64,000 nucleotides of DNA from Pontiella desulfatans (lineage in GTDB: Bacteria > Verrucomicrobiota > Kiritimatiellia > Kiritimatiellales > Pontiellaceae): contig NZ_CAAHFG010000001.1 in the NCBI RefSeq assembly GCF_900890425.1, positions 1,550,001-1,614,000 on the forward strand. The letters are read 5' to 3'. A program made the position numbers and the translations under genes. Under the pieces are notes generated by a model. It did no database searches and was not told the DNA's origin. It saw only the letters and a list, made by a program, of their open reading frames with translations. Each line of letters starts with the position of its first letter. The stretch's first letter is position 1. Positions 7,023 to 39,079 of the stretch are shown piece by piece.

Positions 7023-7034
7023 ACTGAAGGTGGA

Positions 7035-9386: not shown

Positions 9387-10946
9387 ATGGGATTAGCAAT
9401 ACGGAAGGATTCAAAATGGTGGTATGGCAGATACTACGTCGATGGAAAAGAGTTTGTTAAACGACTCAATGTTGAGGTGAGCGGGGAGCGACCTTCCAAG
9501 TTGTCATTGGAAGGAGATAAAGCCTTCGAGCGGTCCCGGATAAAAGCTGAAGAAGCTCTTAACGTGTTACTTGCAGATGTACATTCTAACAAAACAGAGG
9601 AACAGCGGGCTCAGGCTGTATATGAGGCGCGGGCTGGTTCGAAGTTGCGGAAATACAAGTTAAGCGACCTCTCCAAAATATGGTTGGAAAAACCCCGAAA
9701 GCGTGCCCCCTCCGAAGAGCATAGAAAGCAGTGTATTTCAAAGCTGGAAAAATTTTCCGGCTTCATTGAACTGCACTATCCAAAGGTAAGCCGAGTTGAT
9801 CAGGTGCGTTATGATCATGTGAAGGCATTTCTTGACCATCTGGAAGAGGATGGAGTGACTGCGGAGACATGGAACAAATATCTTTCCGTCATCAGGTCTG
9901 TGCTAAGGAGAGTTGGTGTTCCTGCTGCCGCCGATATCATTACCAAAGATGCGGACACAGTATTCCGCGAACCGTATTCAATTGAAGAACTCAATGCGAT
10001 TCTGGATAAAGCCAAATCTGATTCTCTAATTTTTTCGCTGGTTGTGACGGCGGCCTGTACGGCTATGCGTAGGAAAGATTGCTGTTATCTTCTATGGGAG
10101 TCGATTGATTTTGAAGAACGGTTTATTACCGTTAAAACCAGCAAGACTGGGGTCACTGTTGATATTCCAATGGCAGACCTATTAGCCGATCTGGTAGAGG
10201 GGCAGAAAGGTAATGGAAGTACCTACGTTTTTCCCGATGCAAAAGAGCTATATGAATCAGATCCAACAGCCATTACGCGCCGGTTCAAGCAGGTTTTAAG
10301 ATTGGCTGGATTTGGAAAAGCGCCGGTTGAATATAAGGCTGATGCATACACATTGGATGAACTCAAAGAAAAATCCGAGGAGCTTTATGCGGGAAATAAA
10401 CTAAAGCATGTTCTGGATGTGGTTGAGGCTTATTGTTCCGGGCTTTCCATGCGAAAGAGTGCTGAGCGTGCAGGGGTAACAATATCAACCGCATCTCTGT
10501 ACTTGAATGATTTAGAGTCTGCAACAGGCAAGGCCATCATTCGCGGTAAGGCAAGAACGGTCGATGATGGAGCAGGTCAAAGACGCGGTGAAATCAGAAG
10601 GAGTAGGAAAAATGGGAAGCTGGCAGCATCAATAAGAGACTTTCATTCCTTTCGAACGACCTGGGTAACTTTAGCCTTAATGAATGGAATGCCTATTGAA
10701 ACAGTGAGGAAGGTTACAGGGCATCAAACTGCCGACATCGTGACCAAACATTATTTTAGACCCCATCGAGCAGAACTTAAAAAGGCGATGCAAAAATCGT
10801 TGCCCGGACTACTGACTAGCTCCTCCTCAATTCTGGCTCCTAATGAACAGGCTTTGGAAGAATTGAGGGCTATAGGCAGAAAGATGGATAAATCTGAAAT
10901 TCTTAGGCGCGTCGATGAGGCCATCTCTTTATTAGAGAGAAAGTGA
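9387..10946 (+). CDS. Tyrosine recombinase / integrase with internal insertion, 519 aa
   Basis: This is a site-specific integrase of the phage/ICE type. The catalytic signature is present: Arg in CTAMRRKDC (about residue 227), Lys in VKTSKTG (about 252), HSFR (about 420), GHQ (about 446) and the nucleophile Tyr in KHYF (about 455). The N-terminal half has an arm-type region and a SAM-like core-binding domain. The stretch between the Lys and the H-x-x-R box is roughly 90 residues longer than usual and contains an HTH-like segment (MRKSAERAGVTISTASLYL). The start follows GAGGTAGGATT. It lies 120 bases from the tRNA-Gly fragment, so that site is its likely target. Confidence 0.9.
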   Translation: MGLAIRKDSKWWYGRYYVDGKEFVKRLNVEVSGERPSKLSLEGDKAFERSRIKAEEALNVLLADVHSNKTEEQRAQAVYEARAGSKLRKYKLSDLSKIWLEKPRKRAPSEEHRKQCISKLEKFSGFIELHYPKVSRVDQVRYDHVKAFLDHLEEDGVTAETWNKYLSVIRSVLRRVGVPAAADIITKDADTVFREPYSIEELNAILDKAKSDSLIFSLVVTAACTAMRRKDCCYLLWESIDFEERFITVKTSKTGVTVDIPMADLLADLVEGQKGNGSTYVFPDAKELYESDPTAITRRFKQVLRLAGFGKAPVEYKADAYTLDELKEKSEELYAGNKLKHVLDVVEAYCSGLSMRKSAERAGVTISTASLYLNDLESATGKAIIRGKARTVDDGAGQRRGEIRRSRKNGKLAASIRDFHSFRTTWVTLALMNGMPIETVRKVTGHQTADIVTKHYFRPHRAELKKAMQKSLPGLLTSSSSILAPNEQALEELRAIGRKMDKSEILRRVDEAISLLERK

Positions 10947-12792: not shown

Positions 12793-13641
12793 ATGACAAT
12801 AAATGATGCGCAGGAACTTATTCGGACTGCAGTCAGGTTCTTTCAAACGGAAACAAAAACGCTTACGCCCCAAGGCGTCATACTGCACTCTTTGAAGTTG
12901 GAAGAGCATGATAAAGAGGCCTTTGTCATCCCGGTGTCATTTTCTGAGATAACATCTCATGATAAGTGGACGCTCAAAACCAATGATAGCAGTGTCAGCG
13001 AAGTGATCAGGCGTATGCAGGATAAGATGACGAGTGAAGGCTTTGAGCGCAGGGCCGAGATTCTGTTCACGACGTCCAGGCATTTTTTGATCGTGATTAT
13101 CGGAACCGAAAACATAGCCACCTACCAGACTCGCTCATACGCATCTGTCACGCTTCGGTTCTCCGGAGTGGGAAAGAATGACATTCCGACGTATAGGCGT
13201 GGCGACGCTCTTATCATTGAGGGTTCATCTCAAATCAAAGGATGGGTTTATCTGTTTGCGATAGATAATCAGCGCAAACTTTCTGCTGTTTATCCGGGAG
13301 AAGGGAAGTGCAGCCAAATCCGTATCTCTGCCCGGCAGGGCGTGCCGTGGAGTAAAAGGATTAATGATGAATTACCGCACGATCTTTATTTTGCAGGAAA
13401 AGGTAAGGGTATGGAACGGTTCCTGATCGTGGTTGTAAATACTGATACGGATGAGGGTATGGATAAGCCGGTTCCCGTATCCTGTGCCCATGTGCGCGGC
13501 CTATATCCCTTACCGGTTCTTTTTGCCCATGAAGTCAAGATGCGGGGTGTTGAGCGGACAGAACCGTCCCTTGTGACCTTTGATGAATTGGAACCGGAGC
13601 AGATCGCGATTGGAACGCTGGATTATTATTACGAGGGTTAG
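12793..13641 (+). CDS. DUF4384-like protein, 282 aa
   Basis: The gene starts behind GGGAGGTTGGTTAA. The second half, YRRGDALIIEGSSQIKGWVYL then FAIDNQRKLSAVYPGEG and GKGMERFLIVVVN, fits the DUF4384 pattern. That domain is often encoded with or fused to bacterial caspases, and two caspase genes lie 4-7 kb upstream, although in a different transcription unit. It is the only plus-strand gene between minus-strand units, and its stop overlaps the 3' end of the converging membrane-protein gene by four bases. Confidence 0.65.
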   Translation: MTINDAQELIRTAVRFFQTETKTLTPQGVILHSLKLEEHDKEAFVIPVSFSEITSHDKWTLKTNDSSVSEVIRRMQDKMTSEGFERRAEILFTTSRHFLIVIIGTENIATYQTRSYASVTLRFSGVGKNDIPTYRRGDALIIEGSSQIKGWVYLFAIDNQRKLSAVYPGEGKCSQIRISARQGVPWSKRINDELPHDLYFAGKGKGMERFLIVVVNTDTDEGMDKPVPVSCAHVRGLYPLPVLFAHEVKMRGVERTEPSLVTFDELEPEQIAIGTLDYYYEG

Positions 13642-13841
13642 CGCGCCTTGCGGATCTCGTAAATGATCAGGCCTGTGACGATGATGATGCCGAGGACAAC
13701 GAGGTTGCGCTGTTCGTAGGGCAGGTTGTTCAGTCCGGAAAATGGACTGGAGATGCGGATGTATTCTTTGATCCGTGCGAAGTTCACCAGTACGAGCAGG
13801 ATGCCGATCAGTGAAAGCAGGTTCTGCCAGTTGATTCTCAT
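13638..13841 (-). CDS. Small two-helix membrane protein A, 67 aa
   Basis: Two hydrophobic segments are visible (LLSLIGILLVLVNFA and NLVVLGIIIVTGLIIYEI), so this is a small inner-membrane protein. Its start overlaps the stop of the next upstream membrane protein by four bases. The pair follows the HerA-like ATPase gene, so it may form part of a membrane complex for that motor. Confidence 0.65.
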   Translation of the reverse strand: MRINWQNLLSLIGILLVLVNFARIKEYIRISSPFSGLNNLPYEQRNLVVLGIIIVTGLIIYEIRKAR

Positions 13842-14041
13842 GGATTGTTCCCCTGGTTACGGCGTTTGAGCAATGCGAAGATCCCGATCAGGATCATGAT
13901 CCAGAATATCAGGTTGTATTGGGATGAATGCCCTTGGCCGGGCAGGGCGTTCCGGATGGATACGCCGAGGCCGGGCAGGCCATCGAACATTATGATGGCA
14001 ACGAGTATCAGCAAAAGGATCTGGATGAGTCGCGCATACAT
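13838..14041 (-). CDS. Small two-helix membrane protein B, 67 aa
   Basis: Hydrophobic segments MYARLIQILLLILVAIIMFDGL and YNLIFWIMILIGIFALL flank a short loop. The gene begins directly at the stop of the HerA-like gene (14042) and overlaps protein A. Equal length and similar topology to protein A suggest a paired function or an old duplication, though sequence identity is low. Confidence 0.65.
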   Translation of the reverse strand: MYARLIQILLLILVAIIMFDGLPGLGVSIRNALPGQGHSSQYNLIFWIMILIGIFALLKRRNQGNNP

Positions 14042-16105
14042 CTAATCAACCTCCATGTGATTTGAAAGCCGGTCTACCGAGATAGGTTTTCCTGTTAACC
14101 CATGTTTCGTCACAGTTTGTTCAACGCGCTGAACCTCTTTTTTGATGGTGGCAAGGCACAGGATGCGGGTAATCCGTTTTGCTGCCAGTGCCGTAGCGAT
14201 GTTTTCGCGGATGTGGCCGGGATTTGATTTACCCTGCAGTTCGATTTCGATGGCGATGCATTCCTCGCCCGGCTTTTCGGCGATGACATCGATGTTTTTG
14301 TTGTCGGCCATTCCTTCGATTTCAACGCGGTAGCCGAGTTTTTTATAATGGCGGGACACTTGCAGCTGGTAGAAGCGGTGCAGGTAGCCGCCCCGGCCTC
14401 TCATGGGGGGATGCGGAGGTTTTCCGATCAGGTCTAAACCATCATCTAGGATTTCGAAAAGGTCGCGCGGTCTTCCGCTGCTGTTGGAATGGACGGGATA
14501 GATTTCAACCAGTCCCTTTCTTTTGAGCCTCTTGATCTCGGTCTGAAGGGTTCCGGAGGGAATGCGTAATTGCTCGGATCGCCGGTCAACCGTTACGAAC
14601 GGATCGTCATAAATGTGTTTCAGAAGTCGGACTTCAACGGATTCTGTCTGTGCGTCCTCCTCAGGTTTCTTTTTCGGGCGTGCAGTTTCAGTGTTTCGGG
14701 ATGGATCTTGTTGGTGATCCGCAGTGGTTTTCTCCGGTTTGATATTGAAAAGGTCGGCGGCTGCCTGCATACGCGCCTGCAGTTCGGCGGCATTCGGTGG
14801 ATCAGGGAGATCGGGCAGTGTCATATTGCATTCCACATTGTGCGGCCATCGGTTGTCCGCAATGAAGGCCTTTCCGGGTGCCGGATTTCTGTTGACATAA
14901 AGATGCTGTTCTTTCGAGCACCCTCGAAGGTTCAGGAAGGTGTCGGTATCCTCTTTTCGACCGAAACCGCCGACCATCATGCGGGTGCCCGCATTGGCCA
15001 GCAGGCTGTGGGCGAGGTCGGTCGAGTATTGGCTTGCGGCGACCAGCCCGATTCCGTAGCCGCGCGCGGTCTGGACCAGGTCGGCAATGAAGGGGACGTG
15101 GTCCTGCTCCTCGGCCTTCCGGCGGAACAGTCCGGATGCCTCGTCGAATATGATAAGGTTGGTCAGTTCGCCCTGCAGGCCGCAAGTGAGTTTCCGGTAG
15201 AGGAAAGCCTGCGCCATCAGCAGCGTCATCACGAAGTTCTGCACGGTGGAGTGTGTGATGTCGTGCAGGAGAATCAGGCAGTGGTTGTTGACCAGTTTCT
15301 CGATGTCCGTCTGGGACTGGGTGGAAAACATGGCTGGAAAATGGCCGAACAGATCATTGAGGCGGTTCAGTACGGTCTCCTTCTGTTGTCCGTTCTTTGA
15401 CAGCTCCTTGTACGGCTGCTGGGCGATGAAAGTTTTCAGGTCACCCAGGGTAGGGAACTTCCCGTCCTTTTCGCACTGCTTGATCAGGCGGGTCGCATGC
15501 TCCATCAGAAAGGATGAACTCGCCTCGCGGATATCCAGGTGGTTGACCATGCATTCCGTAAAGATGCCGATCCATTTGTTCTGGGCAATCCCTTTGGGTG
15601 GGCACAGCGGATTGAAGGCCAGGGTCTCGACATCCAATATATGCAGGTCGGGCGAGACATTCAGCAGTTCGGTAAACTCCTGCTTGCGCTCAAGGATCAT
15701 CAGTTTCGGCGCATCCGGCATACGGAGTATCTGCATCAGCAGGTTTTTGATGACGGTGGTCTTTCCGCCGCCCGTCCGCCCCAACAGCAGCAGGTGTGTA
15801 ACCAAAGTCCTGATATCGATGCCATAGGGATAATTGTGGTGGGGCATGGTGCCCAGCCGAAGTTCGCCGTCAAGAATCACTTCATCGCGCGGCGCGGTCT
15901 TGCGGAACGGATCAGGATCTTTGCGCTGCTCCTTTATTTCATCCTCCACGACCTCCCTCAGTTCATTGAGGATGGTCCGGTCTTTGGGGTCTTCCACGAT
16001 CCAGTCCATGAGGAGTTTGATGCGGGGCACCGTGTCCAGGCCATGGTGGCGGATAATAGTGAACAGGCGGGAGTGGCTGATGGGGCGGGAATTCTGTTGT
16101 TTCAT
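14042..16105 (-). CDS. HerA-like ATPase with C-terminal nuclease-like domain, 687 aa
   Basis: This is a P-loop motor of the HerA/FtsK/VirD4 class: Walker A is GRTGGGKTT, Walker B is LIIFDEASG, and there is an arginine-finger-type region around GGFGRKEDTD. After a charged linker comes a winged-helix segment (VDRRSEQLRIPSGTLQTEIKRL) and a C-terminal region with NIDVIAEKPGEECIAIEIELQG, a PD-(D/E)xK-like arrangement in which ExE replaces ExK. I chose the ATG at 16105 (GAGGTCCCCT in front) over one 33 bases upstream. It overlaps the zinc-protein gene by 143 bases. Such motors pump DNA or act as conjugative coupling proteins. A second protein of the same architecture is encoded at 37055. Confidence 0.82.
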   Translation of the reverse strand: MKQQNSRPISHSRLFTIIRHHGLDTVPRIKLLMDWIVEDPKDRTILNELREVVEDEIKEQRKDPDPFRKTAPRDEVILDGELRLGTMPHHNYPYGIDIRTLVTHLLLLGRTGGGKTTVIKNLLMQILRMPDAPKLMILERKQEFTELLNVSPDLHILDVETLAFNPLCPPKGIAQNKWIGIFTECMVNHLDIREASSSFLMEHATRLIKQCEKDGKFPTLGDLKTFIAQQPYKELSKNGQQKETVLNRLNDLFGHFPAMFSTQSQTDIEKLVNNHCLILLHDITHSTVQNFVMTLLMAQAFLYRKLTCGLQGELTNLIIFDEASGLFRRKAEEQDHVPFIADLVQTARGYGIGLVAASQYSTDLAHSLLANAGTRMMVGGFGRKEDTDTFLNLRGCSKEQHLYVNRNPAPGKAFIADNRWPHNVECNMTLPDLPDPPNAAELQARMQAAADLFNIKPEKTTADHQQDPSRNTETARPKKKPEEDAQTESVEVRLLKHIYDDPFVTVDRRSEQLRIPSGTLQTEIKRLKRKGLVEIYPVHSNSSGRPRDLFEILDDGLDLIGKPPHPPMRGRGGYLHRFYQLQVSRHYKKLGYRVEIEGMADNKNIDVIAEKPGEECIAIEIELQGKSNPGHIRENIATALAAKRITRILCLATIKKEVQRVEQTVTKHGLTGKPISVDRLSNHMEVD

Positions 16106-16658
16106 AGGGGACCTCGTTTCCCGGTTCAGGTTCTTCAATAATCAACGGTTTCAGAAAAAGTCCGATGAGCCAGCCGGCTGCTTTCAGGGGTTTGAGTGCC
16201 TTGATTTTCTTCTCGCACTCCTCGCACACAAAACCATTGCCCTCGATGTAGGTCAGTTCATGCGGGGCGACCACATGACGGCAGACACATTCCTCATTCC
16301 GGGTCTGGTTGCGCATGCGGCGGTATTCCCGTTCGCAGGCCTTACAGACAGGTTTACCGGAAGTGACGGAAAAGAAACCGATGTCGCCGGGACTGGTCAT
16401 ATTGTGGCCGCACCCTTCCGCGCGAACGTTGTTCTTCAGGGTGATTTTATGCTTTGCCCCGTCCGCATCCCTATAAACCACTTCCCGTCGTATAAACTGG
16501 GAGCCGGATTGGCCGGGAACCTGGGCATTATTTACAGTGTTGAAAAGAATGGTACTTCCTGCCGGCAGTTCTGGTATTTCGATGTCCGGTTCAATGACGG
16601 GGTCCGGCGGCGTATCAAATCGATCCGCCACGTACCTCAGAATGTCGACAAACTTCAT
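15963..16658 (-). CDS. Cys-rich zinc-binding protein, 231 aa
   Basis: The start is the ATG at 16658 behind GGAGGTGCTTCC. Cys motifs are visible in the middle: CGHN, CKAC, CVCRH and CEEC, consistent with two zinc sites, followed by a hydrophobic stretch (AAGWLIGLFLKPLII) and a Pro-rich tail. The tail overlaps the start of the HerA-like gene in another frame for 143 bases. An AGTGTTACG box followed by TATATAG lies 28 bases before the ATG. No family is recognised. It may be a partner of the HerA-like motor. Confidence 0.65.
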   Translation of the reverse strand: MKFVDILRYVADRFDTPPDPVIEPDIEIPELPAGSTILFNTVNNAQVPGQSGSQFIRREVVYRDADGAKHKITLKNNVRAEGCGHNMTSPGDIGFFSVTSGKPVCKACEREYRRMRNQTRNEECVCRHVVAPHELTYIEGNGFVCEECEKKIKALKPLKAAGWLIGLFLKPLIIEEPEPGNEVPYETTEFPPHQPLPPVHYYPPPWPGHGAPHQTPHGLDRGRPQRPDHPQ

Positions 16659-16701: not shown

Positions 16702-16878
16702 TTACAGGGAGTCCGCAACCGCCGGTTGCGGTTGTCCGGTGACGCGTTTGCTCCACCGGCGCTTGCAGGACTTGCATCGGCGGATCCGCGCGTCGGCGGA
16801 ACGGTTTCTTCGTACACCCTTTGAAATGGTTTTTGTTGACCCGCAATATGGGCATTTATGTGGTCGGCCTCTCGGCAT
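16702..16878 (-). CDS. Small zinc-ribbon protein, 58 aa
   Basis: MPRGRPHKCPYCGS and RRCKSCKRRW give a CxxC-CxxC zinc ribbon of the kind seen at the N-terminus of InsA-type transposases. I chose the ATG at 16878 because GGAGGTGATC, a full match to the 16S anti-Shine-Dalgarno, lies just before it. The promoter region has an archaeal-looking BRE/TATA (CCGAAAAACATATAAAG) at the right distance. DNA binding is likely; the role is unknown. Confidence 0.6.
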   Translation of the reverse strand: MPRGRPHKCPYCGSTKTISKGVRRNRSADARIRRCKSCKRRWSKRVTGQPQPAVADSL

Positions 16879-16887
16879 ATTGATCAC

Positions 16888-16945: not shown

Positions 16946-17266
16946 TCATCGGAAAATGTCTGTCCGGAAAATGGCGTGGTAGGTGAAGACAATGAACATG
17001 GCGACCTGGATCAGCCAGAACAGCGGCTTGAATTCATCTGGGGCCCCGTTGATCGCCGCGCCGAAAATTCCGAAGCAGAAAACGAGGATCAGCGCTTCCA
17101 CAACCAGAAAGAACGCCCACCGGAAGATACGGTTGATAAAGAGCGGCAGCCTCCCCGGGGGGAGGTGCCGTTCGTTGATAAACAACTCAAGCCGCTCCTG
17201 CTGTGCCGGGCGCCGGTTCCTTCGGTTATGAGGCGGGTTCGGATTTCTTGGAATAGGTGCTGCCAT
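16946..17266 (-). CDS. Small membrane protein with Arg/Pro-rich N-terminus, 106 aa
   Basis: After about 45 basic residues come two hydrophobic helices (WAFFLVVEALILVFCFGIFGAAI and PLFWLIQVAMFIVFTYHAIF). The ATG at 17266 lies 41 bases inside the end of the JAB-E1 gene, behind TTAAGGAAAGCA, so it is translationally coupled to it. It could anchor the conjugation cassette at the membrane; this is inference from position. Confidence 0.65.
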   Translation of the reverse strand: MAAPIPRNPNPPHNRRNRRPAQQERLELFINERHLPPGRLPLFINRIFRWAFFLVVEALILVFCFGIFGAAINGAPDEFKPLFWLIQVAMFIVFTYHAIFRTDIFR

Positions 17267-18731
17267 TGCTTTCCTTAAGCAGTTTCATGGTCCTGGAGTG
17301 TGAGAATCCTTTTTTGCGGGTTAACAAGGGTTCCCGGTTCCCGCCGAGCAGCATGCCCTCGCGGCTGCACAACGGGCAGTCCGTACGGGTGCCGTCACGC
17401 CGACGTTGATAATAGTGCGGCTGCATGCCGCCGTTGAGCAGGTCAACCGACAGGATATCCCACTCATTGTTCGGCGTTGCCCCGGTGGCATAGCGCAGGA
17501 TTTCCCAGGCCGTGATTCCGGCCATGGCCATATTTAGCGGCATGACCGACGGAGCCGCCATCGTTGCACCGGAAACATAGCCGCGGCTGCGTGCCAGTTC
17601 ATAGTCTTCTTCGCTGAGCAGACCCTGGTAGGCAACTCCCGCATCGAAGAAGTCGGCGCATTCATGGCATAGGTTGCTGCCGGGTACCACTTTGACAATC
17701 TGCCCCTGAACAGCGGTTAGTTGTCCATCCTCAACAATGATGCCGGTGCCTGCATCAAACAGCACCATGCCATGCACCAGTGCCATGCAGTTTGCCACAA
17801 ACCGCGATGTTTCATTGTCCGTGGTCACCACCAGCAGGTCGCAGTCGAGAAGCTGATGCTGAATCTCCAGTTCACGCAGGTCGCCATGTACAACCCGGAT
17901 GTCGGCATCGGGATTGGTCTGAAGAACCGCGCGTCGGCACAGTTCCGTCTTAGTAATCGAGCGGGTCGCTGTCACCTGGTTCCCATAAAGGGAGCGGTTG
18001 GCGTTTTCGATCTGGAACTCGTCCATGTCGCAAATGGTGAGCTTGAAGCCGAGGTTGGCCAGTTGGGCGATTACCGGTTCCCCAAGACTGCCGCACCCGA
18101 TCGCCCCAATGCGGACATTCCGGTTGTTCAGTACAGCCTCCTGTCCGAACGCCAGAGAAAGACGTGAAAGGTAGAGATCATTGAGTTCTAGATCCGGATC
18201 GCGCAGGGGCGAGGAGGTGGGGTAATGGAGTTCAAGTTTACCGGGTTCGGTCACAATGAGTTTTTCGACCGGAACGCGGGAGTTGAGCGATGGACGAAAC
18301 AGGTGTGCCTCAATCCCTTCAAAGTCAAGACTGATCACCATCGTCATTACCAGCATGCCCGGACAGGCCGCCGAGATGGCGGCAGGCATGTATTCCGCAG
18401 CCTCTAGGTCGGTCGAGCTTTCACGTGGATGTCCTCCGGAAAACGGGTGCGTATGGGTATAGATCACATGCAACTGGTTTTCCGCACAATACAAGAGGAC
18501 TTTTTGAAGGAACTCAGGTTTCAGTCGGCAGGCAGTCGGGTGCTGGATTTCATAGTCATCCGGTTCGGCGAAGAACACGTGCGTTGCTAGAAAACGGCAG
18601 TGTCCATCACCTTTCGATAAGTGTCCTGCGATTACAAAGCAAATCTCGTTGGGTGCTTCATGATTCAGGCGGTCACGTATGGCCTCCCTCAACTGGCGGG
18701 ACATTACAATGCTGGTTTCTTTGGTATTCAT
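17226..18731 (-). CDS. JAB peptidase-E1 (ThiF) adenylating fusion, 501 aa
   Basis: The N-terminal 160 residues carry a JAMM deubiquitinase-type motif (THTHPFSGG...ESSTDLEA, that is HxH...SxxD). The C-terminal part is an E1/ThiF Rossmann domain: IGAIGCGSLGEPV for nucleotide binding, the acidic switch ICDMDEFQIENANRSLYG, and a Cys-containing segment CHECADFF. Bacterial proteins of this architecture activate ubiquitin-like proteins, with the JAB domain processing or removing them. The E2-like gene lies 21 bases upstream. This arrangement resembles known antiphage ubiquitin-like (Bil-type) systems and the E1/E2/JAB operons described by comparative genomics. Confidence 0.85.
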   Translation of the reverse strand: MNTKETSIVMSRQLREAIRDRLNHEAPNEICFVIAGHLSKGDGHCRFLATHVFFAEPDDYEIQHPTACRLKPEFLQKVLLYCAENQLHVIYTHTHPFSGGHPRESSTDLEAAEYMPAAISAACPGMLVMTMVISLDFEGIEAHLFRPSLNSRVPVEKLIVTEPGKLELHYPTSSPLRDPDLELNDLYLSRLSLAFGQEAVLNNRNVRIGAIGCGSLGEPVIAQLANLGFKLTICDMDEFQIENANRSLYGNQVTATRSITKTELCRRAVLQTNPDADIRVVHGDLRELEIQHQLLDCDLLVVTTDNETSRFVANCMALVHGMVLFDAGTGIIVEDGQLTAVQGQIVKVVPGSNLCHECADFFDAGVAYQGLLSEEDYELARSRGYVSGATMAAPSVMPLNMAMAGITAWEILRYATGATPNNEWDILSVDLLNGGMQPHYYQRRRDGTRTDCPLCSREGMLLGGNREPLLTRKKGFSHSRTMKLLKESNGSTYSKKSEPAS

Positions 18732-18752
18732 GGCGTTTCCTTTCTATTGAGG

Positions 18753-19175
18753 TCAGAGGGTGTTGAGTTGCTGGAAAATGGTGTTTACTACCGTGGCATA
18801 GTTGTCGCCGCTCACTACGTCATAGCTGGGGCGCCAGCGATCCAGCAGGAGACAGAACCAGGCATAGCCATAGTCGGACAGATCTACGCAGCCATGCGCC
18901 GCCCCTTGGTTGAATACATGGTCGAGGTGACGCCCGGAACGGTGCTTCAGGCCGATGTCCAGGTAGAACGCCTCCGGACGCTGGGTAATCGGTTTGTCCA
19001 GTCCCGGTGTCAGGATGAATAGACGACTTCGATTCTGCATAACGTTGCGGGGTAGCGGGAACTTATCGATGGCGATCCACTGGCAGTCCTCATCATCGTA
19101 GGTGATGGTGGAGTCCGGCATCTGGTTGGCAAGCAACTGGAGGTTGCCCCAGTACCATGCTTCAATCTTGTTCAT
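18753..19175 (-). CDS. E2-like protein (prokaryotic E2 family E type), 140 aa
   Basis: Start at the ATG behind AGGAGATTAAAA. The middle, RLFILTPGLDK then PEAFYLDIGLKH, and the C-terminal CVDLSDYGYAWFCLLLDRWRP match my recollection of the Prok-E2_E (PF14462) pattern. Two Cys, in HGCVDL and WFCLLL, could be the thioester residue. It would accept an activated ubiquitin-like protein from the JAB-E1 fusion encoded next. Family assignment rests on pattern memory, so a profile search would be decisive. Confidence 0.7.
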   Translation of the reverse strand: MNKIEAWYWGNLQLLANQMPDSTITYDDEDCQWIAIDKFPLPRNVMQNRSRLFILTPGLDKPITQRPEAFYLDIGLKHRSGRHLDHVFNQGAAHGCVDLSDYGYAWFCLLLDRWRPSYDVVSGDNYATVVNTIFQQLNTL

Positions 19176-19235
19176 TTTTAATCTCCTGTGTTTGATGCTT
19201 GGAATTACGGGGCGCATGCGCCCCGGTAGGCGGGT

Positions 19236-19409
19236 TTAGCCCTGAGTACTGGGCAGAAGGTTTCCCAGCGTCGCGGGTTTAACCTCAATGGATTCCAGCT
19301 CCGCCGATTCGGACGGATCGTCCTGCACCGACCCCGGCTGGTCGACCGTTGCCGGTACGTCGATGTTGGCTTTCCTGCCCGAGAACGGGCTGTTGATGTT
19401 GAGTCCCAT
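19236..19409 (-). CDS. 57-aa peptide ending in Gly: candidate ubiquitin-like modifier or tag
   Basis: The gene lies immediately upstream of the E2-like gene, in the same direction, with AGGAGCAATACC before its ATG. The product MGLNINSPFSGR... is acidic in the middle (QDDPSESAELESIEVK) and ends LLPSTQG. Position just before E2 and JAB-E1, and a C-terminal Gly, are what one expects of the conjugated protein. Against this, 57 residues is short for a beta-grasp fold and the end is TQG rather than GG. I recognise no family. Confidence 0.55.
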   Translation of the reverse strand: MGLNINSPFSGRKANIDVPATVDQPGSVQDDPSESAELESIEVKPATLGNLLPSTQG

Positions 19410-19433: not shown

Positions 19434-19673
19434 TTAATGGAGCGCGCTTAACACCAGGCGCGCCAGAACAAGCGTGATGATCGGTACCGCGATTGCGGCG
19501 TTGTTGCCGCGGATCTTCAGTTCCACCCCTTGGAAAATCCGGCAGTAGGGCTCGCATATCCGTGACAGGATCGGGGTAAGCGAGTGACGCTCCGCGCGGT
19601 TGGTCTCCAGCAGGAACCACCAGATGGCGTGTGCCGCGATATACAGATCCAGAACGAGGATGATCAGGTTCAT
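19434..19673 (-). CDS. YggT-like small membrane protein, 79 aa
   Basis: Two hydrophobic helices (MNLIILVLDLYIAAHAIWWFLL and NNAAIAVPIITLVLARLVLSAL) flank a loop with LSRICEPYCRIFQGVELK; the PLL/CEPYxxIF-like loop resembles the YggT family of small inner-membrane proteins. The ATG follows TTGGAGCAAACA. A GTGTTACG box lies 42 bases upstream. It is part of the operon with the E2/JAB-E1 genes. Confidence 0.6.
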   Translation of the reverse strand: MNLIILVLDLYIAAHAIWWFLLETNRAERHSLTPILSRICEPYCRIFQGVELKIRGNNAAIAVPIITLVLARLVLSALH

Positions 19674-19727: not shown

Positions 19728-19877
19728 CTATCCAAGGTGGGGACGGTGTACGTCGCGAACACGGTAATAACGCTCGAACTCCTCGGCTCGGCGGCGTTCC
19801 TCCTCCATGCGGCGGCGCTGCTCATCAAGGAAGCTGTTGTTTGTTGCATACGGATTGTTGTAGGTCGGATAGCTCAT
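19728..19877 (-). CDS. Small hypothetical protein, 49 aa
   Basis: ATG behind AAGGAGAAAACC, then an N-terminal low-complexity stretch (SYPTYNNPYATNN) and a strongly charged helix (RRRMEEERRRAEEFERYY). It is the first gene of the minus-strand operon that contains the E2/JAB-E1 cassette. A CGTCACA-type box lies 107 bases upstream. The coding call rests on the ribosome site and operon position. Confidence 0.5.
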   Translation of the reverse strand: MSYPTYNNPYATNNSFLDEQRRRMEEERRRAEEFERYYRVRDVHRPHLG

Positions 19878-20471: not shown

Positions 20472-21929
20472 ATGAACAAACGGAAACCACCGTTCAATCC
20501 GCTTGATCCAAGCTTCTTCGAAGAAGGACGCTACAAAACTGTAGAGAAGTCATTGCGATGGTTGGCATCAGACCTTGATGCTTCGCTGAAAATAACACAG
20601 GAAGCATTAGAGGCTGTACGCGAAAAAAGGCTCTATCAAATTGGCTCTATATTTGCACAGATGCGTATATGCTTGTCAGATTCGGCAAGAGGGGAACCTT
20701 TATTGTTCCATGTAAGCAATGAGCTACACTATCCACTAACAGTTTATGTTCCCGAAAGCCACACTCTGGAAATGAATCTGGATGGCCCCGCTCCGGGATA
20801 TGCAAATTTCATACATTTTCCACATTTTAGCCTCATCCAAAATGATGGATATCCAAACACGATAGGATTTCAGGAGTTACTTCAAACCGAGATGCTTCAT
20901 GCTCCGGGCACGCACCCTTGCAGGAGCAATCATGATAAACCATGGACACTTGGAGAAGTTGTGTATCGCGTGGCCTGCCAATTTGGGGGTGCGCATGTTG
21001 ATAAACGGATCAATGGCGGACTACTCCACTTAATAAAGAATCCTTTGGTTCAGAACTTCTATCTCCAGGTATCTGATGCAGCGGTACATCTTGGCCAGGA
21101 AATGCTCAGCAACTGCAATGATGCGATTATTCTCTCTGACTGCGAGGGAAAAGTGCATGTCAGCAATTATGACACTTGGTATGGGCGTGGCCATTGTCTG
21201 AGTAAAAAAGGAGAGCAGGTAAAAGCGATTGAAGCCTTTGACCAAGCCATCGAATTAAACCCTACCTATTCTGCATATTTTGCAAGAGCCGTCGCTTATG
21301 CAAATCTTCCTAATCCAGACAAGGCAATTGAGGATTTCAACCGAGCTGCTAAGCTCAATGCGGATGATCCAACATTATGGAATTACGTTGGTATAACGTA
21401 CGCACAAAAGGGGAGTTCCCCCAAAGCAATAGAGTCGTATCACCGGGCAATCAAACTCAGGCCAAACTATGCCGAGGCTTGGTATGATCTCGGCGTAATT
21501 CTCCAACGGGACGGGATGGTAGATAAGGCGATCGATGCCTATCAAAAAGCGACACAGTCTGACCCTGACCTGCTCAATGCCTGGAACAACTGGGGAAACA
21601 TTTACAGTGAGGCTATGATGCCTGACCATGCGCTTCCTCTGTATCAAGAGGTTGTAAACCGGAATCCTGAGCATGAGACGGTCTGGTACAACAGTGCCCG
21701 TACTTTATCCTATAGCGGGCATAACAAACAAATCGTGTTGGAGCACCTTGGAAACGCTGTTCGGATAACTCCCGATGACAAAGAATGTGCAAAAGAAGAC
21801 CCAGCGTTTAAACGCCTCTGGAAAGACTGCGACTTTATCGAATTAACTAAAGGAATACATTGTCATCCCATAGATATTGAAAAAAAAGGCTGGCATGTGC
21901 CGTTGAAATCCTCCACTCGGAGGGTATGA
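20472..21929 (+). CDS. TPR-repeat protein, C-terminus altered by IS insertion, 485 aa
   Basis: The N-terminal 240 residues are not recognised; they include a histidine- and cysteine-containing stretch (MLHAPGTHPCRSNHDKPWT). From about residue 240 there are six or so tetratricopeptide repeats (AIEAFDQAIELNPTYSAYFA, AIESYHRAIKLRPNYAEAWY). The IS at 21858 entered the last codons. In the uninterrupted sequence the frame would end GID-stop directly after GI; now it reads through 24 codons of IS end before stopping. The change is therefore small and the protein is probably functional. It precedes DUF4747 and membrane-protein genes. Confidence 0.8.
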   Translation: MNKRKPPFNPLDPSFFEEGRYKTVEKSLRWLASDLDASLKITQEALEAVREKRLYQIGSIFAQMRICLSDSARGEPLLFHVSNELHYPLTVYVPESHTLEMNLDGPAPGYANFIHFPHFSLIQNDGYPNTIGFQELLQTEMLHAPGTHPCRSNHDKPWTLGEVVYRVACQFGGAHVDKRINGGLLHLIKNPLVQNFYLQVSDAAVHLGQEMLSNCNDAIILSDCEGKVHVSNYDTWYGRGHCLSKKGEQVKAIEAFDQAIELNPTYSAYFARAVAYANLPNPDKAIEDFNRAAKLNADDPTLWNYVGITYAQKGSSPKAIESYHRAIKLRPNYAEAWYDLGVILQRDGMVDKAIDAYQKATQSDPDLLNAWNNWGNIYSEAMMPDHALPLYQEVVNRNPEHETVWYNSARTLSYSGHNKQIVLEHLGNAVRITPDDKECAKEDPAFKRLWKDCDFIELTKGIHCHPIDIEKKGWHVPLKSSTRRV

Positions 21930-31893: not shown

Positions 31894-33042
31894 TTACCGG
31901 TGGAACTTGATTTCCTGTTGTTTGGCAACTTTCTTTTCGTCTTTCAACTTTAGCCGGGTAAGAGATTTTAGCTTTCGCTCGGCTTTTTTGATCTGTTTCA
32001 GTTCGCCGTTCAGTTGCTGCTCCATCCGTAGCGCCGTTACGACGGCGGACAGGGTTTGGGGTTGGGATTGGGCCTGTGCGTGGGTGGCAACGGTATCGAT
32101 CTGGCGCCGCAGTTCCCGGTGTCGGGTCTCGGCAGTTTTAAGCATCTGCTCGATCGCATGCTCTTCCAGGATTTTCTTCCGTTCGAGCAGGATCTGCTGC
32201 TGGAGTTTTTTGCGGTCGTCCTCCCCAAGTTCCTTGCAGTATTCCCGCAGTTGCTGGAGTTCGTGCCAGTCAAAGTTTCGCAGTCGCCGATCCATGATTC
32301 GTACTTTATCCAGTGTTCGGATAACGTCGTCTGTTTTATGAGCGATAGCGGCTGTCGCTTGAGCGACCTCTTTAAAATCGGGATTGGAGTGTTCCAGCTC
32401 CGTTTTCAGGCCCTTGAGGGTTTTCTCGATCCTTCGGTCTTCCTTCTGGGCTTCGGGCAGTTCGCGGCCCTGGGTTTTAGCGATCTGCTTAACTTCGCTC
32501 TTTTCCCGTTTACGGTCGAGCATGGCGACGAAGCCAGCGTCGTTCCCCGGCTTTCCGTGCGGCCACAGGCGCATGATGAGTTTCCATGTACAGACCAAAA
32601 AAGCGATTGCCGCAATCAGTACCAATGCCGGCGCATCCCGCAGTACCTTCGGATAGATGCCTGCTGTTAACAGATAGATGATAATGTACGCGACGAGTGC
32701 GGCAGTGTCCCATTTCATGCCTAGCTGATGCAGGAGGTGAAACAACAGTAGGCCGAACAGGATCAGCATGATAATGGCTGCGAGGCCGCCGGCCATTCGC
32801 AGGTTCCATCCAAACTGGGCCTCGGAAATCGCAAGGCCTGTTCCGAGCATGATGCCCAGCGCCGTTGCCAGCGCCTTTCCCGGTCGCCCCCGAAACCGGG
32901 TTCCAAAGACCGCCTGGCACAGGGCAATGAATATGGTGCAGTAGATAATCAGGTCAAAAAGCGCATAGTATCTGTCATAGGTCGCTGCAAGGTTCCAGCC
33001 CGCGAAGGGGGCTAAAGCGTCAGCAAATGGGTCGTAGCTCAT
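31894..33042 (-). CDS. Polytopic membrane protein with long coiled coil, 382 aa
   Basis: Residues about 25-165 contain five hydrophobic segments (ALFDLIIYCTIFIALCQAVF, ATALGIMLGTGLAIS, MAGGLAAIIMLILFGLLLFHLL, ALVAYIIIYLLTAGIY, LVLIAAIAFLVCTWKLIM). The remainder is a charged helical region likely to form a coiled coil. It overlaps the orc1-like gene by four bases. The fold recalls membrane components of conjugation or viral systems, but I cannot name the family. Confidence 0.65.
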   Translation of the reverse strand: MSYDPFADALAPFAGWNLAATYDRYYALFDLIIYCTIFIALCQAVFGTRFRGRPGKALATALGIMLGTGLAISEAQFGWNLRMAGGLAAIIMLILFGLLLFHLLHQLGMKWDTAALVAYIIIYLLTAGIYPKVLRDAPALVLIAAIAFLVCTWKLIMRLWPHGKPGNDAGFVAMLDRKREKSEVKQIAKTQGRELPEAQKEDRRIEKTLKGLKTELEHSNPDFKEVAQATAAIAHKTDDVIRTLDKVRIMDRRLRNFDWHELQQLREYCKELGEDDRKKLQQQILLERKKILEEHAIEQMLKTAETRHRELRRQIDTVATHAQAQSQPQTLSAVVTALRMEQQLNGELKQIKKAERKLKSLTRLKLKDEKKVAKQQEIKFHR

Positions 33043-34289
33043 TCATAATTCACCTCGTCTAAATCAAAGCTGTTCAATATCGTCCGCTTCATGGACGCAA
33101 GTATCTGTGGGGTCAGGGAAACATAGATTTCCTTGGTTCGGCCGTAGCGGCCGCGCGACACGGTACGGGCACGGATAAAACCATACATGTCGAGTTCACT
33201 TAAAAGATCGGTAAATGCCCGCTGGGTCAGCGGAGGCATTCCTGCCTCATGGCAGAAGCGTTCGTAAACGAGATAGGCATCGCCGGTGTGCAGCGCCCGT
33301 CCCTGCGCCTTTCCGGTCAGTGCGGCATAAAGCGCCGCCTGCAACTGCTTGGGGCAGGTTCGGATCATCGCGAGGTATTTATCCTTTTCGATTTCCTCGT
33401 AGGCCTCGTCCACACAGTCGAGCGTGATTTTTTCGCCCTTCTTTTCCGCGAGCTGTGCTGAGCGCGTCAGCAGGTCTACGGCCTTCCGGGCGTCGCCGTG
33501 GGTTCGCGATGCATACGCCGCGATCTTCGGCACCACACCTTCGTCAACCATTTTGGGGCGCAGGGCTTTTTCAACGCGGATGTTGAGGATGTGCTGGAGG
33601 TCGTTGGCATTGTAGGGATCAAAAAGGAGTTCGCGCATTTTAAGGCAGCTCTTTATTCGCGGATCCAGGTTTTCCGTCCAGCTCAGTCGGTTGGATGAAA
33701 ACAGCAGGATCAGTTTCGCTTCGATTTTCTGCGGCAGCCGTTTGATCAGGAATTTATAGAAAGAGTCCGGGTCGGTGCGGATGTTGTCGGCTTCATCAAT
33801 AAAGATGACGATGTATCCCTTCGCGCTTTTCAATTTGGTTTCAATGGAGCGCATCAGGTCGTCGAGGCTGATGCCCCGCTTATAGTATTTGCTCGCGCCC
33901 ATCAGGCAACCGAGGTTGTTCAGCGCGCGAAAGCACGGGGCAGGGCAGCACAGATCAAGATGGTATTGCCGAAAAGGTATATGTTGCTCTGAACAAAGCA
34001 TGGATATTTCGTGAAGCAGATACAGCAAAGTGATCGTCTTGCCTGTGCCGGTCTTGCCCAGTACAGATAAATGGACGGGGTGCCCGTTTTGGAACACGGG
34101 CGCAAAATGGCGGGTGATTTCCCCGATCTCCCGGTTCCGGACGTTTGCATTGAATATTTCCGTGAGTACGTCGAACTGGCCCTCCCGCGACAACTGTTCA
34201 TCGTCCAGGTATTGCGGGTGCTGGATGATTGCGTTTTTGAACGCTTCATAGATCTGTTCCCGGATGTGGGATTTAATGGTTGTTTGCAT
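33039..34289 (-). CDS. Orc1/Cdc6-type AAA+ replication initiator, 416 aa
   Basis: Orc1/Cdc6 proteins recognise origins in archaea. Walker A is LGKTGTGKT, Walker B is IFIDEADN, sensor 1 is LLFSSNRLSW, and the family-defining sensor 2 is THGDARKAVDLLTRSAQLAE. The C-terminal winged helix reads GDAYLVYERFCHEAGMPPLT then FTDLLSELDMYGFIRARTVS and RGRYGRTKEI, as in archaeal Cdc6. The length of 416 is normal. It starts a minus-strand unit with overlap to the next gene. The upstream intergenic region holds candidate origin boxes. A bacterial AAA+ protein with the same domain is possible, but the signature is strong. Confidence 0.85.
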   Translation of the reverse strand: MQTTIKSHIREQIYEAFKNAIIQHPQYLDDEQLSREGQFDVLTEIFNANVRNREIGEITRHFAPVFQNGHPVHLSVLGKTGTGKTITLLYLLHEISMLCSEQHIPFRQYHLDLCCPAPCFRALNNLGCLMGASKYYKRGISLDDLMRSIETKLKSAKGYIVIFIDEADNIRTDPDSFYKFLIKRLPQKIEAKLILLFSSNRLSWTENLDPRIKSCLKMRELLFDPYNANDLQHILNIRVEKALRPKMVDEGVVPKIAAYASRTHGDARKAVDLLTRSAQLAEKKGEKITLDCVDEAYEEIEKDKYLAMIRTCPKQLQAALYAALTGKAQGRALHTGDAYLVYERFCHEAGMPPLTQRAFTDLLSELDMYGFIRARTVSRGRYGRTKEIYVSLTPQILASMKRTILNSFDLDEVNYE

Positions 34290-36507: not shown

Positions 36508-37065
36508 ATGGCAGGAAACTATAACTGGTATTATCCGGGCTATGCGCCCGATCAAAAACTGCAGAAGGACGCCTACGGCTATCATGTCGAAACCGGCCGT
36601 CCCGCATTTGAAATCATACGGGAAATTCCGGCAGCGAAGCAGCCGTTCGGGAAGCCCGACGGACTCTATGAAAAGATTTTCAATGACGGGAATGCGCGAG
36701 AACATGATCCGATGAATTTCGGGGCGGACCGGATGTTATTACACGGTGATCACATCGACTGCCTGATGAAACAGTTGCAAGCACGGCACACGATCTCATA
36801 CAGCGTTCTGAATGATATTGAGTTTCAGGAAACCCGCGTGAATTCATCGCTATCCCAATTGAATGGTCTACCTGTGATGGCAGGTCGATGTTCAAAACAG
36901 GGTATCGACCTGGAAAAGCAACTAGCACGATTGAGCCAGGAACGTCACGCCGAAGAGATCGCATGCTGGCGGGATACCAACCGGTTGCTGGGAAGCATAT
37001 TTGATTCATGGACAGGCTATGCCGATGAGCGGCGGAAAAAGAGGTTGATGGACGATGACCTTTGA
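36508..37065 (+). CDS. Hypothetical protein upstream of HerA-like ATPase 2, 185 aa
   Basis: ATG preceded by GGTGA. The N-terminus is aromatic (MAGNYNWYYPGYAPDQK), and the C-terminal half is helical and charged. The gene overlaps the HerA-like gene by 11 bases, so the products are made together. No motif is recognised. Confidence 0.65.
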   Translation: MAGNYNWYYPGYAPDQKLQKDAYGYHVETGRPAFEIIREIPAAKQPFGKPDGLYEKIFNDGNAREHDPMNFGADRMLLHGDHIDCLMKQLQARHTISYSVLNDIEFQETRVNSSLSQLNGLPVMAGRCSKQGIDLEKQLARLSQERHAEEIACWRDTNRLLGSIFDSWTGYADERRKKRLMDDDL

Positions 37066-39079
37066 GGAATCGCTCAAAAAACTGGCCGTCCATATCGGGC
37101 AGATCAAGGCGTTGAAACTATGGCGTCAATACCAGCTGTCCGATGCATTCGGAAGACGGGATATAGAGGCTTTGATCGAGTTGCAGCTCCATCAGAAATA
37201 TGGCGAGGATCCGCTGCGCGATGAAAATGGATTGCAGGTGCCGCCGGAAAATGACGCAGCAGGTGAGTATGAACTCGGGCAGGTTTTGAACTATGAAAAA
37301 GTCCTCCATCCGTTCGGAATCCGGGAGGATGAATTTATCCAGCACATGGCGATTTTTGGGCGGAGCGGGGCAGGTAAAACCAATACGGTAGCCCTGCTCA
37401 TAAAAGAGCTGGTTCGTCACAAAAAACCGTTCCTTATATTTGACTGGAAACGGAACTATCGAGACCTGTTGGCGCACGATGTTCCACTGGAAGTTTACAC
37501 CGTCGGAAGGCCAGTTCATCCGCTCTATTTTAACCCGCTGATTCCACCCCCTGGAACCGATCTAAAAGTGTGGTTAAAAAAACTGATCGAGATTATATCC
37601 CACGCCTACTTTTTAGGAGAAGGAGTTATGTTTATTCTGATGGAAGCTATCGATGCCGTTTACTCAAAATTCGGGTGCTATGGAAATGCTCCCGAGCGCT
37701 ATCCAACTCTGAAGGATGTACTTGAGTTTTTGGAAAAGATGCCGGTGAAGGGCCGGAAGGCTATGTGGCTCGATTCCACCATGCGGGCGGTTCAAAGTTT
37801 ATGCTTTGGACAGGTGTCCGACGTCATCAATACCGACTCCCAAACCGGGGTGCAGCAACTGCTCGATAAGAACGTTTGCCTTGAGCTCAATTCGCTGGCG
37901 CAAAACGAAAAAACATTCCTGATCGAAACACTGATGGTGTGGATACACCATTGCCGAATGCTTGAGCCCGACCGGGAAACATTCAAGCACTGCATCATCG
38001 TGGAAGAGGCGCACAACATACTGACGAATACCGGAAAGGAAACGGTCATCGATCTGATTCTGCGGGAGATCCGGGAGCTCGGTGAATCCATCGTGCTGAT
38101 AGACCAGCATCCGAGCCAGATATCGGTTCCAGCCCTTGGAAACACATATTGTACCATCGCGCTCAATATGAAACACAGCAAGGATATCAACTCACTCGCT
38201 GAGATGATGCGGATCCCGAAAGAGAACCGCGAAACGCTGGGCCTGCTGCCCATTGGTCATGCGGTCGTGAAACTCCAGTCGAGGTTCATCCATCCATTTG
38301 AAATCCAGATTCCGAAAGTCGATCTCGATAAAGGATCGGTCTCCGATGCGTACCTATCGCAAATTTATGGATCCTATTCCAGCGATTCCACATCAAAGGG
38401 CAACCATAATGCCGGTTCCAGTGAAAAGGAACCCATTCCCGAAAACCATAGAATAGAGAAGCATTCTACTGGAACAGGTCTATCTGAGACCGAAGAAGTA
38501 TTGCTTAAGGATATTCGTAAGCATCCTTTTGATGGAGTTGTTAAACGATATTCAAGATTGGGGATCAGTCGAAGGCGGGGGAACCATGCCAAACAGGGAC
38601 TTATTGAAAAAGGAGTAATCCAGCCCGTTGACGTCCCTACAAAAACCGGCAAGGTCGTCCTCCTCGACTTCACCCCCGCCATGCGCGAATCCATGAAGCG
38701 GAATGGGATTAAAGTCACCAAGCGCAAGGAAGGTGGAATCGTTCACAACTATTGGAAAAACGGAATCCTTAAGCAGCTCGAAAAAGACGGATGGACTGTC
38801 GAACTCGAAAAACCTATAGGCAATAATATGGCCATTGACCTCTACGCTGAAAAAGCTGGTAAACGCATTGCAGTCGAAGTCGAAACCGGCACCCGCGGCG
38901 CTGAGAACATAGAAAAACTGATACCCTTGAAGCTTGATCGCATCATCAGTTTCAGTACGACAAACGAATCTAAGATCAAAACATTGCGGGATCTCAGTAC
39001 CCGATCAATCCATTTAAACAACCTGAAGATCCAAGATCCAAGCTCATGGGACCGAAAGAATGAATTGTGGATCAAATGA
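37055..39079 (+). CDS. HerA-like ATPase 2 with nuclease-like C-terminus, 674 aa
   Basis: Walker A is FGRSGAGKTNT and Walker B is CIIVEEAHN, with the ILIDQHPS block typical of HerA/FtsK motors (here VLIDQHPSQ). An N-terminal helical region and a mid-protein winged helix (YSRLGISRRRGNHAKQGLIE) precede a C-terminal domain with AIDLYAEKAGKRIAVEVETG, a PD-(D/E)xK-like layout ending ExE. It has the same three-part architecture as the minus-strand protein at 14042-16105, though the sequences have diverged. DNA translocation for transfer or replication is likely. Confidence 0.82.
   Translation: MTFEESLKKLAVHIGQIKALKLWRQYQLSDAFGRRDIEALIELQLHQKYGEDPLRDENGLQVPPENDAAGEYELGQVLNYEKVLHPFGIREDEFIQHMAIFGRSGAGKTNTVALLIKELVRHKKPFLIFDWKRNYRDLLAHDVPLEVYTVGRPVHPLYFNPLIPPPGTDLKVWLKKLIEIISHAYFLGEGVMFILMEAIDAVYSKFGCYGNAPERYPTLKDVLEFLEKMPVKGRKAMWLDSTMRAVQSLCFGQVSDVINTDSQTGVQQLLDKNVCLELNSLAQNEKTFLIETLMVWIHHCRMLEPDRETFKHCIIVEEAHNILTNTGKETVIDLILREIRELGESIVLIDQHPSQISVPALGNTYCTIALNMKHSKDINSLAEMMRIPKENRETLGLLPIGHAVVKLQSRFIHPFEIQIPKVDLDKGSVSDAYLSQIYGSYSSDSTSKGNHNAGSSEKEPIPENHRIEKHSTGTGLSETEEVLLKDIRKHPFDGVVKRYSRLGISRRRGNHAKQGLIEKGVIQPVDVPTKTGKVVLLDFTPAMRESMKRNGIKVTKRKEGGIVHNYWKNGILKQLEKDGWTVELEKPIGNNMAIDLYAEKAGKRIAVEVETGTRGAENIEKLIPLKLDRIISFSTTNESKIKTLRDLSTRSIHLNNLKIQDPSSWDRKNELWIK

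Follow-up and report, generated by a model that had tools for sequence, protein, structure and literature searches.

A putative reversible protein-tagging cassette with a candidate 57-aa tag in a HerA/Orc element of Pontiella desulfatans

The Bub pathway corresponds to what Iyer et al. 2006 (PMC1779556) listed as row 6e operons. That survey describes all neighbourhoods of this type as containing a beta-grasp gene and their E2-like proteins as lacking the conserved cysteine. In the BilABCD system, as described in PMC11354881, E1 and JAB are encoded by separate genes, the E1 carries two adenylation domains, BilA has two Ubl domains and the E2 uses a cysteine.

We analysed a window of 64,000 nucleotides from Pontiella desulfatans (positions 1550001-1614000 of contig C1, in an 8.66-Mb assembly), in which an initial annotation had proposed a ubiquitin-like conjugation cassette of three ORFs. 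All three were confirmed and lie on the minus strand, p57 first, then the E2-like protein and the JAB-E1 fusion (Table 1), and they do comprise an E1/JAB/E2 set of the bacterial ubiquitin-like kind, with a small Gly-ending ORF occupying the modifier position as had been claimed. A sequence resembling a ribosome site stands ahead of each: AAAGGAG for p57, CAGGAG for the E2 at its second Met and AAAGGAA for the E1. The longest ORF of the E2-like protein spans 18753-19217, and its second Met is the best-supported start because of the CAGGAG ahead of it and because the ORF of an orthologous cassette begins at the same alignment point.

Table 1 Features of the cassette and of the surrounding element in the window (the membrane proteins at 13638-14041, 16946-17266 and 19434-19673 were called by eye from sequence).
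Feature	Position	Strand	Basis
Integrase-like ORF (named by eye)	9387..10946	+	Weak homolog in sister region L036
Two 67-aa membrane proteins of element backbone	13638..14041	-	Sister-region comparison
HerA-type ATPase 1 (HerA1)	14042..16138	-	DUF87 E=8.9e-10; paralogs
Zn-ribbon protein, one border of cassette slot	16702..16887	-	Pfam scan, sister-region comparison
106-aa membrane protein after E1	16946..17266	-	Kept in P. sulfatireligans (38%) and, by first residues, in G476
JAB-E1 fusion (P0003), 501 aa	17226..18731	-	ThiF and Prok-JAB matches, PDB match, invariant motif residues
E2-like protein, 140 aa from second Met	18753..19175	-	hhalign match to six Bub-kind E2s
E2 Cys108 codon, proposed catalytic residue	18852..18854	-	Invariant in 3/3; pairs with Ser of WFSWH
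p57, Gly-ending 57-aa peptide, candidate modifier	19236..19409	-	Ribosome site, codon log-odds, AF2 single-sequence model
YggT-like small membrane protein before p57	19434..19673	-	PF02325 E=0.017; homolog (35%) beside 91-aa protein in G476
p49, backbone peptide ending RPHLG, other border of cassette slot	19728..19877	-	Sister-region comparison
Orc1/Cdc6-type AAA+ of element backbone	33039..34289	-	Cdc6_C E=4.8e-23
HerA-type ATPase 2 (HerA2)	37055..39079	+	Paralogs, sister-region comparison

The conjugation enzymes and their relatives

Pfam searches identified in the JAB-E1 fusion a ThiF domain (PF00899, E=1.5e-24, residues 194-438) and a Prok-JAB domain (PF14464, E=4.6e-5, residues 12-118) that falls just under the gathering score. 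Its top PDB match was Citrobacter BubCD (E=2e-13; PDB 9ea4 and others), and MccB was also among the matches (3.2e-5). We aligned it with an orthologous protein from a genome of the same class (G476, see below) and with nine Bub-kind E1s, to which its identity is 19-26%. The JAB residues E29, H93, H95 and D108 were invariant in all 11 proteins, as were residues of the E1 nucleotide site; no invariant Cys occurs in this alignment between the two Zn CxxC pairs of the E1, and the window protein has no Cys at all between residues 360 and 454. Judged by sequence, the window E1 belongs to the Bub / row 6e kind and is distantly related to Citrobacter BubCD.

The window E2 by itself had no Pfam match, and its identity derives from profile comparison: a profile built from the window, G476 and Pontiella sulfatireligans sequences matched six Bub-kind E2s (hhalign E=4.4e-10). 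The G476 ortholog taken singly matched Prok-E2_E (PF14462) at 2.2e-5, just under the cut-off. The only Cys invariant in the three E2s is C108 (WFCLLLDRWRP), matched by hhalign to the Ser within WFSWH of the Bub-kind E2s; in a MAFFT alignment none of these six has a Cys in the C108 column, and the E2 of a Natrinema plasmid has one a few residues further on. Cys96 (HGC) was ruled out as the catalytic residue, the G476 ortholog having HGA at that place. A PDB profile search with the E2 gave no matches, and an AF2 model computed from two sequences was of low confidence (pLDDT 42).

The cassette therefore shares with the Bub / row 6e kind a JAB domain fused ahead of an E1 without a conserved Cys between its Zn pairs, a Prok-E2_E-type E2 encoded just before JAB-E1, a small gene before the E2 and a mobile setting. 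It differs in two ways: its E2 has an invariant Cys, which Bub-kind E2s lack, and we recognised no beta-grasp gene beside it, either by Pfam scans of the neighbouring proteins or by comparison of p57 with the Multi_ubiq profile. Also unlike the Bub kind, two membrane proteins accompany it. No match to DUF6527 was found among ten proteins scanned; other Zn-binding proteins are present (16702-16887 and 15963-16658). With BilABCD it has in common the gathering of E1, E2 and JAB functions in one cassette and a Cys-type E2, but its JAB and E1 are fused in one ORF and no Ubl was found beside it. The best-supported part of our interpretation is that the E1, E2 and JAB of the window are intact, descend from the Bub kind and include a Cys-type E2; their enzymatic activity is presumed.

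An E2 profile search over 345 genomes of the same class found it in three: that of P. desulfatans, G404 (a fragment) and G476, which belongs to another family. The G404 fragment has the same protein sequence as that at a P. sulfatireligans locus (L004), a decayed copy that is the nearest named relative of the cassette. This copy (L004:7804-8595) consists of E2 and E1 C-terminal pieces with the 106-aa membrane protein, and adjoins transposase-like ORFs. On the G476 contig (L073) the full-length E1 shows 41% identity and the E2 42%. A separate search of the phylum for the E2 yielded matches in five of 387 genomes, meaningful only in P. desulfatans itself; we disregarded the four others, which were partial matches with E 5e-4 to 0.009, two of them containing stops. 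A search of another class with the E1 profile A2 retrieved none of 384 genomes at E<=1e-25, a threshold that ordinary Bub E1s may miss. Scans of viral contigs with JAB-E1, E2, A1, A2 and A3 returned 3, 4, 46, 120 and 29 pattern stretches, respectively, none confirmed as a relative; JAB-E1 had no match in the phage search, and the E2 had a single weak match among plasmids (E=0.3). JAB-E1 matched 78 plasmid records, and we examined 13 regions from 40 of these listed. They included an operon of a haloarchaeal Natrinema plasmid (L016:2032-4886) with a gene order comparable to that of the window: an Ubl-like 80-aa protein before the E2, then JAB-E1 and a membrane protein after the E1, with an acidic low-complexity 70-aa ORF further up.

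The P. desulfatans genome also contains an ordinary Bub cassette (L002:684-2781), composed of a Multi_ubiq protein, a Prok-E2_E protein, a JAB-E1 and a DUF6527-like ORF (named by eye), and located ~1.3 kb from a HerA2-type gene.

The peptide in the modifier position

The peptide is, as first described, 57 aa long, Gly-ending (C-terminus STQG) and devoid of GG. Its in-frame codon log-odds, with codon usage trained on 15 ORFs of the window, was +13.3, against -11.5, -3.4, 3.0, 1.7 and -11.6 in the five remaining frames; from this and its Shine-Dalgarno (SD) site, p57 is likely a gene. It stands where Bub cassettes encode their Multi_ubiq modifier. The absence of GG is no objection to such a role, since a single terminal Gly suffices in the modifiers of ordinary Bub cassettes, which end in ...ANFG or ...AQEG. 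On the other hand, a terminal Gly alone is weak evidence for a modifier, as it is not rare: it occurs in 7 of the 90 ORFs of at least 280 aa and in 14 of 70 mechanically called ORFs of 40-80 aa with an SD-like site.

An AF2 model of p57, which from a lone sequence is weak evidence, had an N-terminal hairpin (2-6/13-17) followed by coil, with a pTM of 0.22 and a mean pLDDT of 69.5. The charge-hydropathy rule placed p57 so near the boundary (0.455 vs 0.445) that disorder is not clear-cut, and its TOP-IDP mean of 0.192 differs little from the 0.185 of one ordinary Bub modifier. Its VKPATLG stretch aligned with the PATFG tails of the Multi_ubiq profile, with an hhalign E=0.37 and a probability score of 0.2. 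No credible homolog was found outside P. desulfatans among 29 genomes of the family at E<=1: matches occurred in six, and those in the five other genomes, with E 0.09 to 0.85 and stops in four of the five, were regarded as fortuitous.

Immediately before the E2 of G476 lies a 62-aa ORF, p62 (MTARNSS...SAGIDG), with AGGAGG ahead of its ATG. It is of low complexity and, like p57, short, poor in bulky residues and Gly-ending. The overall alignment score of the two peptides was equalled by 1458 of 2000 shuffles; when the comparison was confined to the last 20 residues, 143 of 2000 did so. Since they align no better than shuffled sequences, what is conserved is position and type, not sequence. The proposal that p57 is the modifier is plausible and partly supported, a Gly-ending ORF preceding the E2 in the ortholog too. 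Disorder combined with a lack of conservation alongside the enzymes had been named as the outcome that would speak against it; what we found is a largely disordered prediction and a sequence that is not conserved, in a position and of a type that are.

Pup offers an analogy for how p57 could work, not one of descent. It is a disordered modifier of about 60 aa, ends in GGE or GGQ and is ligated by PafA, whereas p57 ends in STQG and stands with an E1; no PafA was detected among ten neighbours scanned.

The mobile element and its cargo slot

As initially annotated, the neighbours of the cassette on the same strand are membrane proteins and a DNA motor, a HerA-type ATPase, and our comparison agrees that this setting is unlike that of known antiphage systems. 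HerA1 had matches at 1e-15 in three of 29 genomes of the family, with seven places in P. desulfatans, counting the more distant HerA2 type, and none in G476, G404 or G259. A backbone shared by the window and the sister regions L035-L039, incomplete in some, consists of HerA1, the 67-aa membrane proteins, Zn proteins, p49, a SprT-like ORF, the Orc1/Cdc6-type AAA+, a 382-aa protein, an acidic protein and HerA2. The window cassette occupies a slot between the Zn-ribbon gene and p49. The latter has a conserved end, VRDxHRPH[LM][GR], and is also present in elements without an E1; as a modifier it was thought unlikely, being encoded in the E1-less L038 and L039 and ending in Arg in L036.

The slot of L036 holds another cassette, in which a 91-aa protein with a H..HR...YVCW pattern, by eye resembling an E2, stands together with a different JAB-E1 and a ClpA/B-like AAA+. 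The three parts of this second type were found at L036:7265-10431 and L035:1710-6083, as well as in L066, L067 and L068, and the E1 part only in L069. Its JAB-E1 measures 545-620 aa, and the ~91-aa H..HR...YVCW protein occurs in three copies in L035 and two in L067; we recognised no beta-grasp gene in this type, which had no match in the plasmid collection at 1e-15. No E1 was seen in the slot of L038 in the parts read, and BLAST with the window E1 found none in L038 or L039. Given the window cassette, the different JAB-E1 cassettes in the slots of sister elements and the ordinary Bub cassette near a HerA2-type gene, E1 cassettes seem to be recurrent cargo of these elements.

Element ends were not found in the window, where a single 15-base direct match was taken as chance and no tRNA was present, so that calling the element mobile rests on its paralogs and on the integrase-like ORF. 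Several other genes of the region deserve mention. The Orc1/Cdc6-type AAA+ has lid and winged-helix domains and is archaeal-looking in a bacterial element; G476 has two further copies. Two tandem caspase-like proteins (5667-9038) lie beside the integrase-like ORF; in L035 a homolog of the second adjoins the genes for the 67-aa membrane proteins. The window also has a pair of almost identical 413-aa transposase-like ORFs (1088-2329 and 21926-23167) in inverted orientation.

How the cassette might work

Our leading guess, plausible and held tentatively, is that p57 is the modifier of a reversible protein-tagging set that belongs to the JAB-E1 + E2 (Bub / row 6e) kind and forms exchangeable cargo of a HerA/Orc mobile element. 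The E1 domain would adenylate the C-terminal Gly of p57, a short and mostly unfolded modifier, which might then be transferred, without an E1-bound stage on Cys, to form a thioester with C108 of the E2; direct transfer is suggested by the lack of a conserved Cys between the two Zn pairs of the E1. The E2 would hand p57 to a target and the JAB domain would take it off again. Neighbouring membrane or DNA-transfer proteins would be the simplest targets, a guess from the neighbourhood alone. A more far-reaching version, which we consider somewhat less probable, is that p57 and p62 are ~60-aa disordered protein modifiers without a beta-grasp fold, recognised mainly by their C-terminal tails, transferred from an E1 without conserved catalytic Cys directly to the E2 Cys, and used by the mobile element on its own membrane and DNA-transfer machinery. 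We know of no modifier of E1/E2 enzymes without that fold.

About as probable as p57 being the tag is that the enzymes conjugate a true beta-grasp protein encoded outside the cassette. Candidates would be the Multi_ubiq protein from the ordinary Bub cassette, a host protein of ThiS/MoaD type or the product of an element gene that escaped recognition; p57 and p62 would then have an accessory role, for example as adaptors or inhibitors. The one Multi_ubiq gene of the P. desulfatans genome above the cut-off lies in a full Bub cassette, but the E1 of that cassette is only about 24% identical to the window E1, so one would not expect the two to share a modifier. What speaks most strongly against p57 in this role lies on the other strand of the G476 contig, where a 91-aa protein ending in SISG (L073:5522-5797) adjoins the homolog of the YggT-like membrane protein of the window. 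By eye it is possibly a beta-grasp protein, although support for this assignment is weak (NCBIfam 0.069; hhalign probability score 1.2) and it has no homolog in P. desulfatans. The Natrinema operon, in which an Ubl-like protein before the E2 coexists with a low-complexity ORF further up, likewise fits an accessory role for such peptides.

Two further readings appear much less probable than these. A decaying cassette that has lost its modifier, with p57 as the remnant of a beta-grasp gene, is improbable: the modelled hairpin, the resemblance of VKPATLG to the VPPATFG tail of Bub modifiers and the decayed P. sulfatireligans copy would agree with it, but the E1 and E2 ORFs are complete and keep their motifs, p57 is preceded by a ribosome site and reads as coding by codon use, and p62 has neither a hairpin-like start nor a VKPATLG-type tail. 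Still less do we expect p57 to be a product rather than a tag, modified by the E1 as the microcin C peptide is by MccB. ThiF-type enzymes can act on short peptides, MccB working on the C-terminus of one, and MccB figured among the PDB matches of JAB-E1. Nonetheless, to our knowledge the microcin C system involves no E2 or JAB, whereas both partners are intact in the two full cassettes, which fits a cycle of conjugation and deconjugation, and no exporter was recognised among ten proteins scanned.

Known modifiers that pass through E1 and E2 have the beta-grasp fold, and intact enzymes without such an adjoining gene make the need for this fold testable. The Cys/Ser difference inside one E2 family provides a natural comparison between thioester and other relay chemistry. 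Finally, JAB-E1 cassettes of different types recur near HerA-type genes, which suggests that tagging is of some use to these elements.
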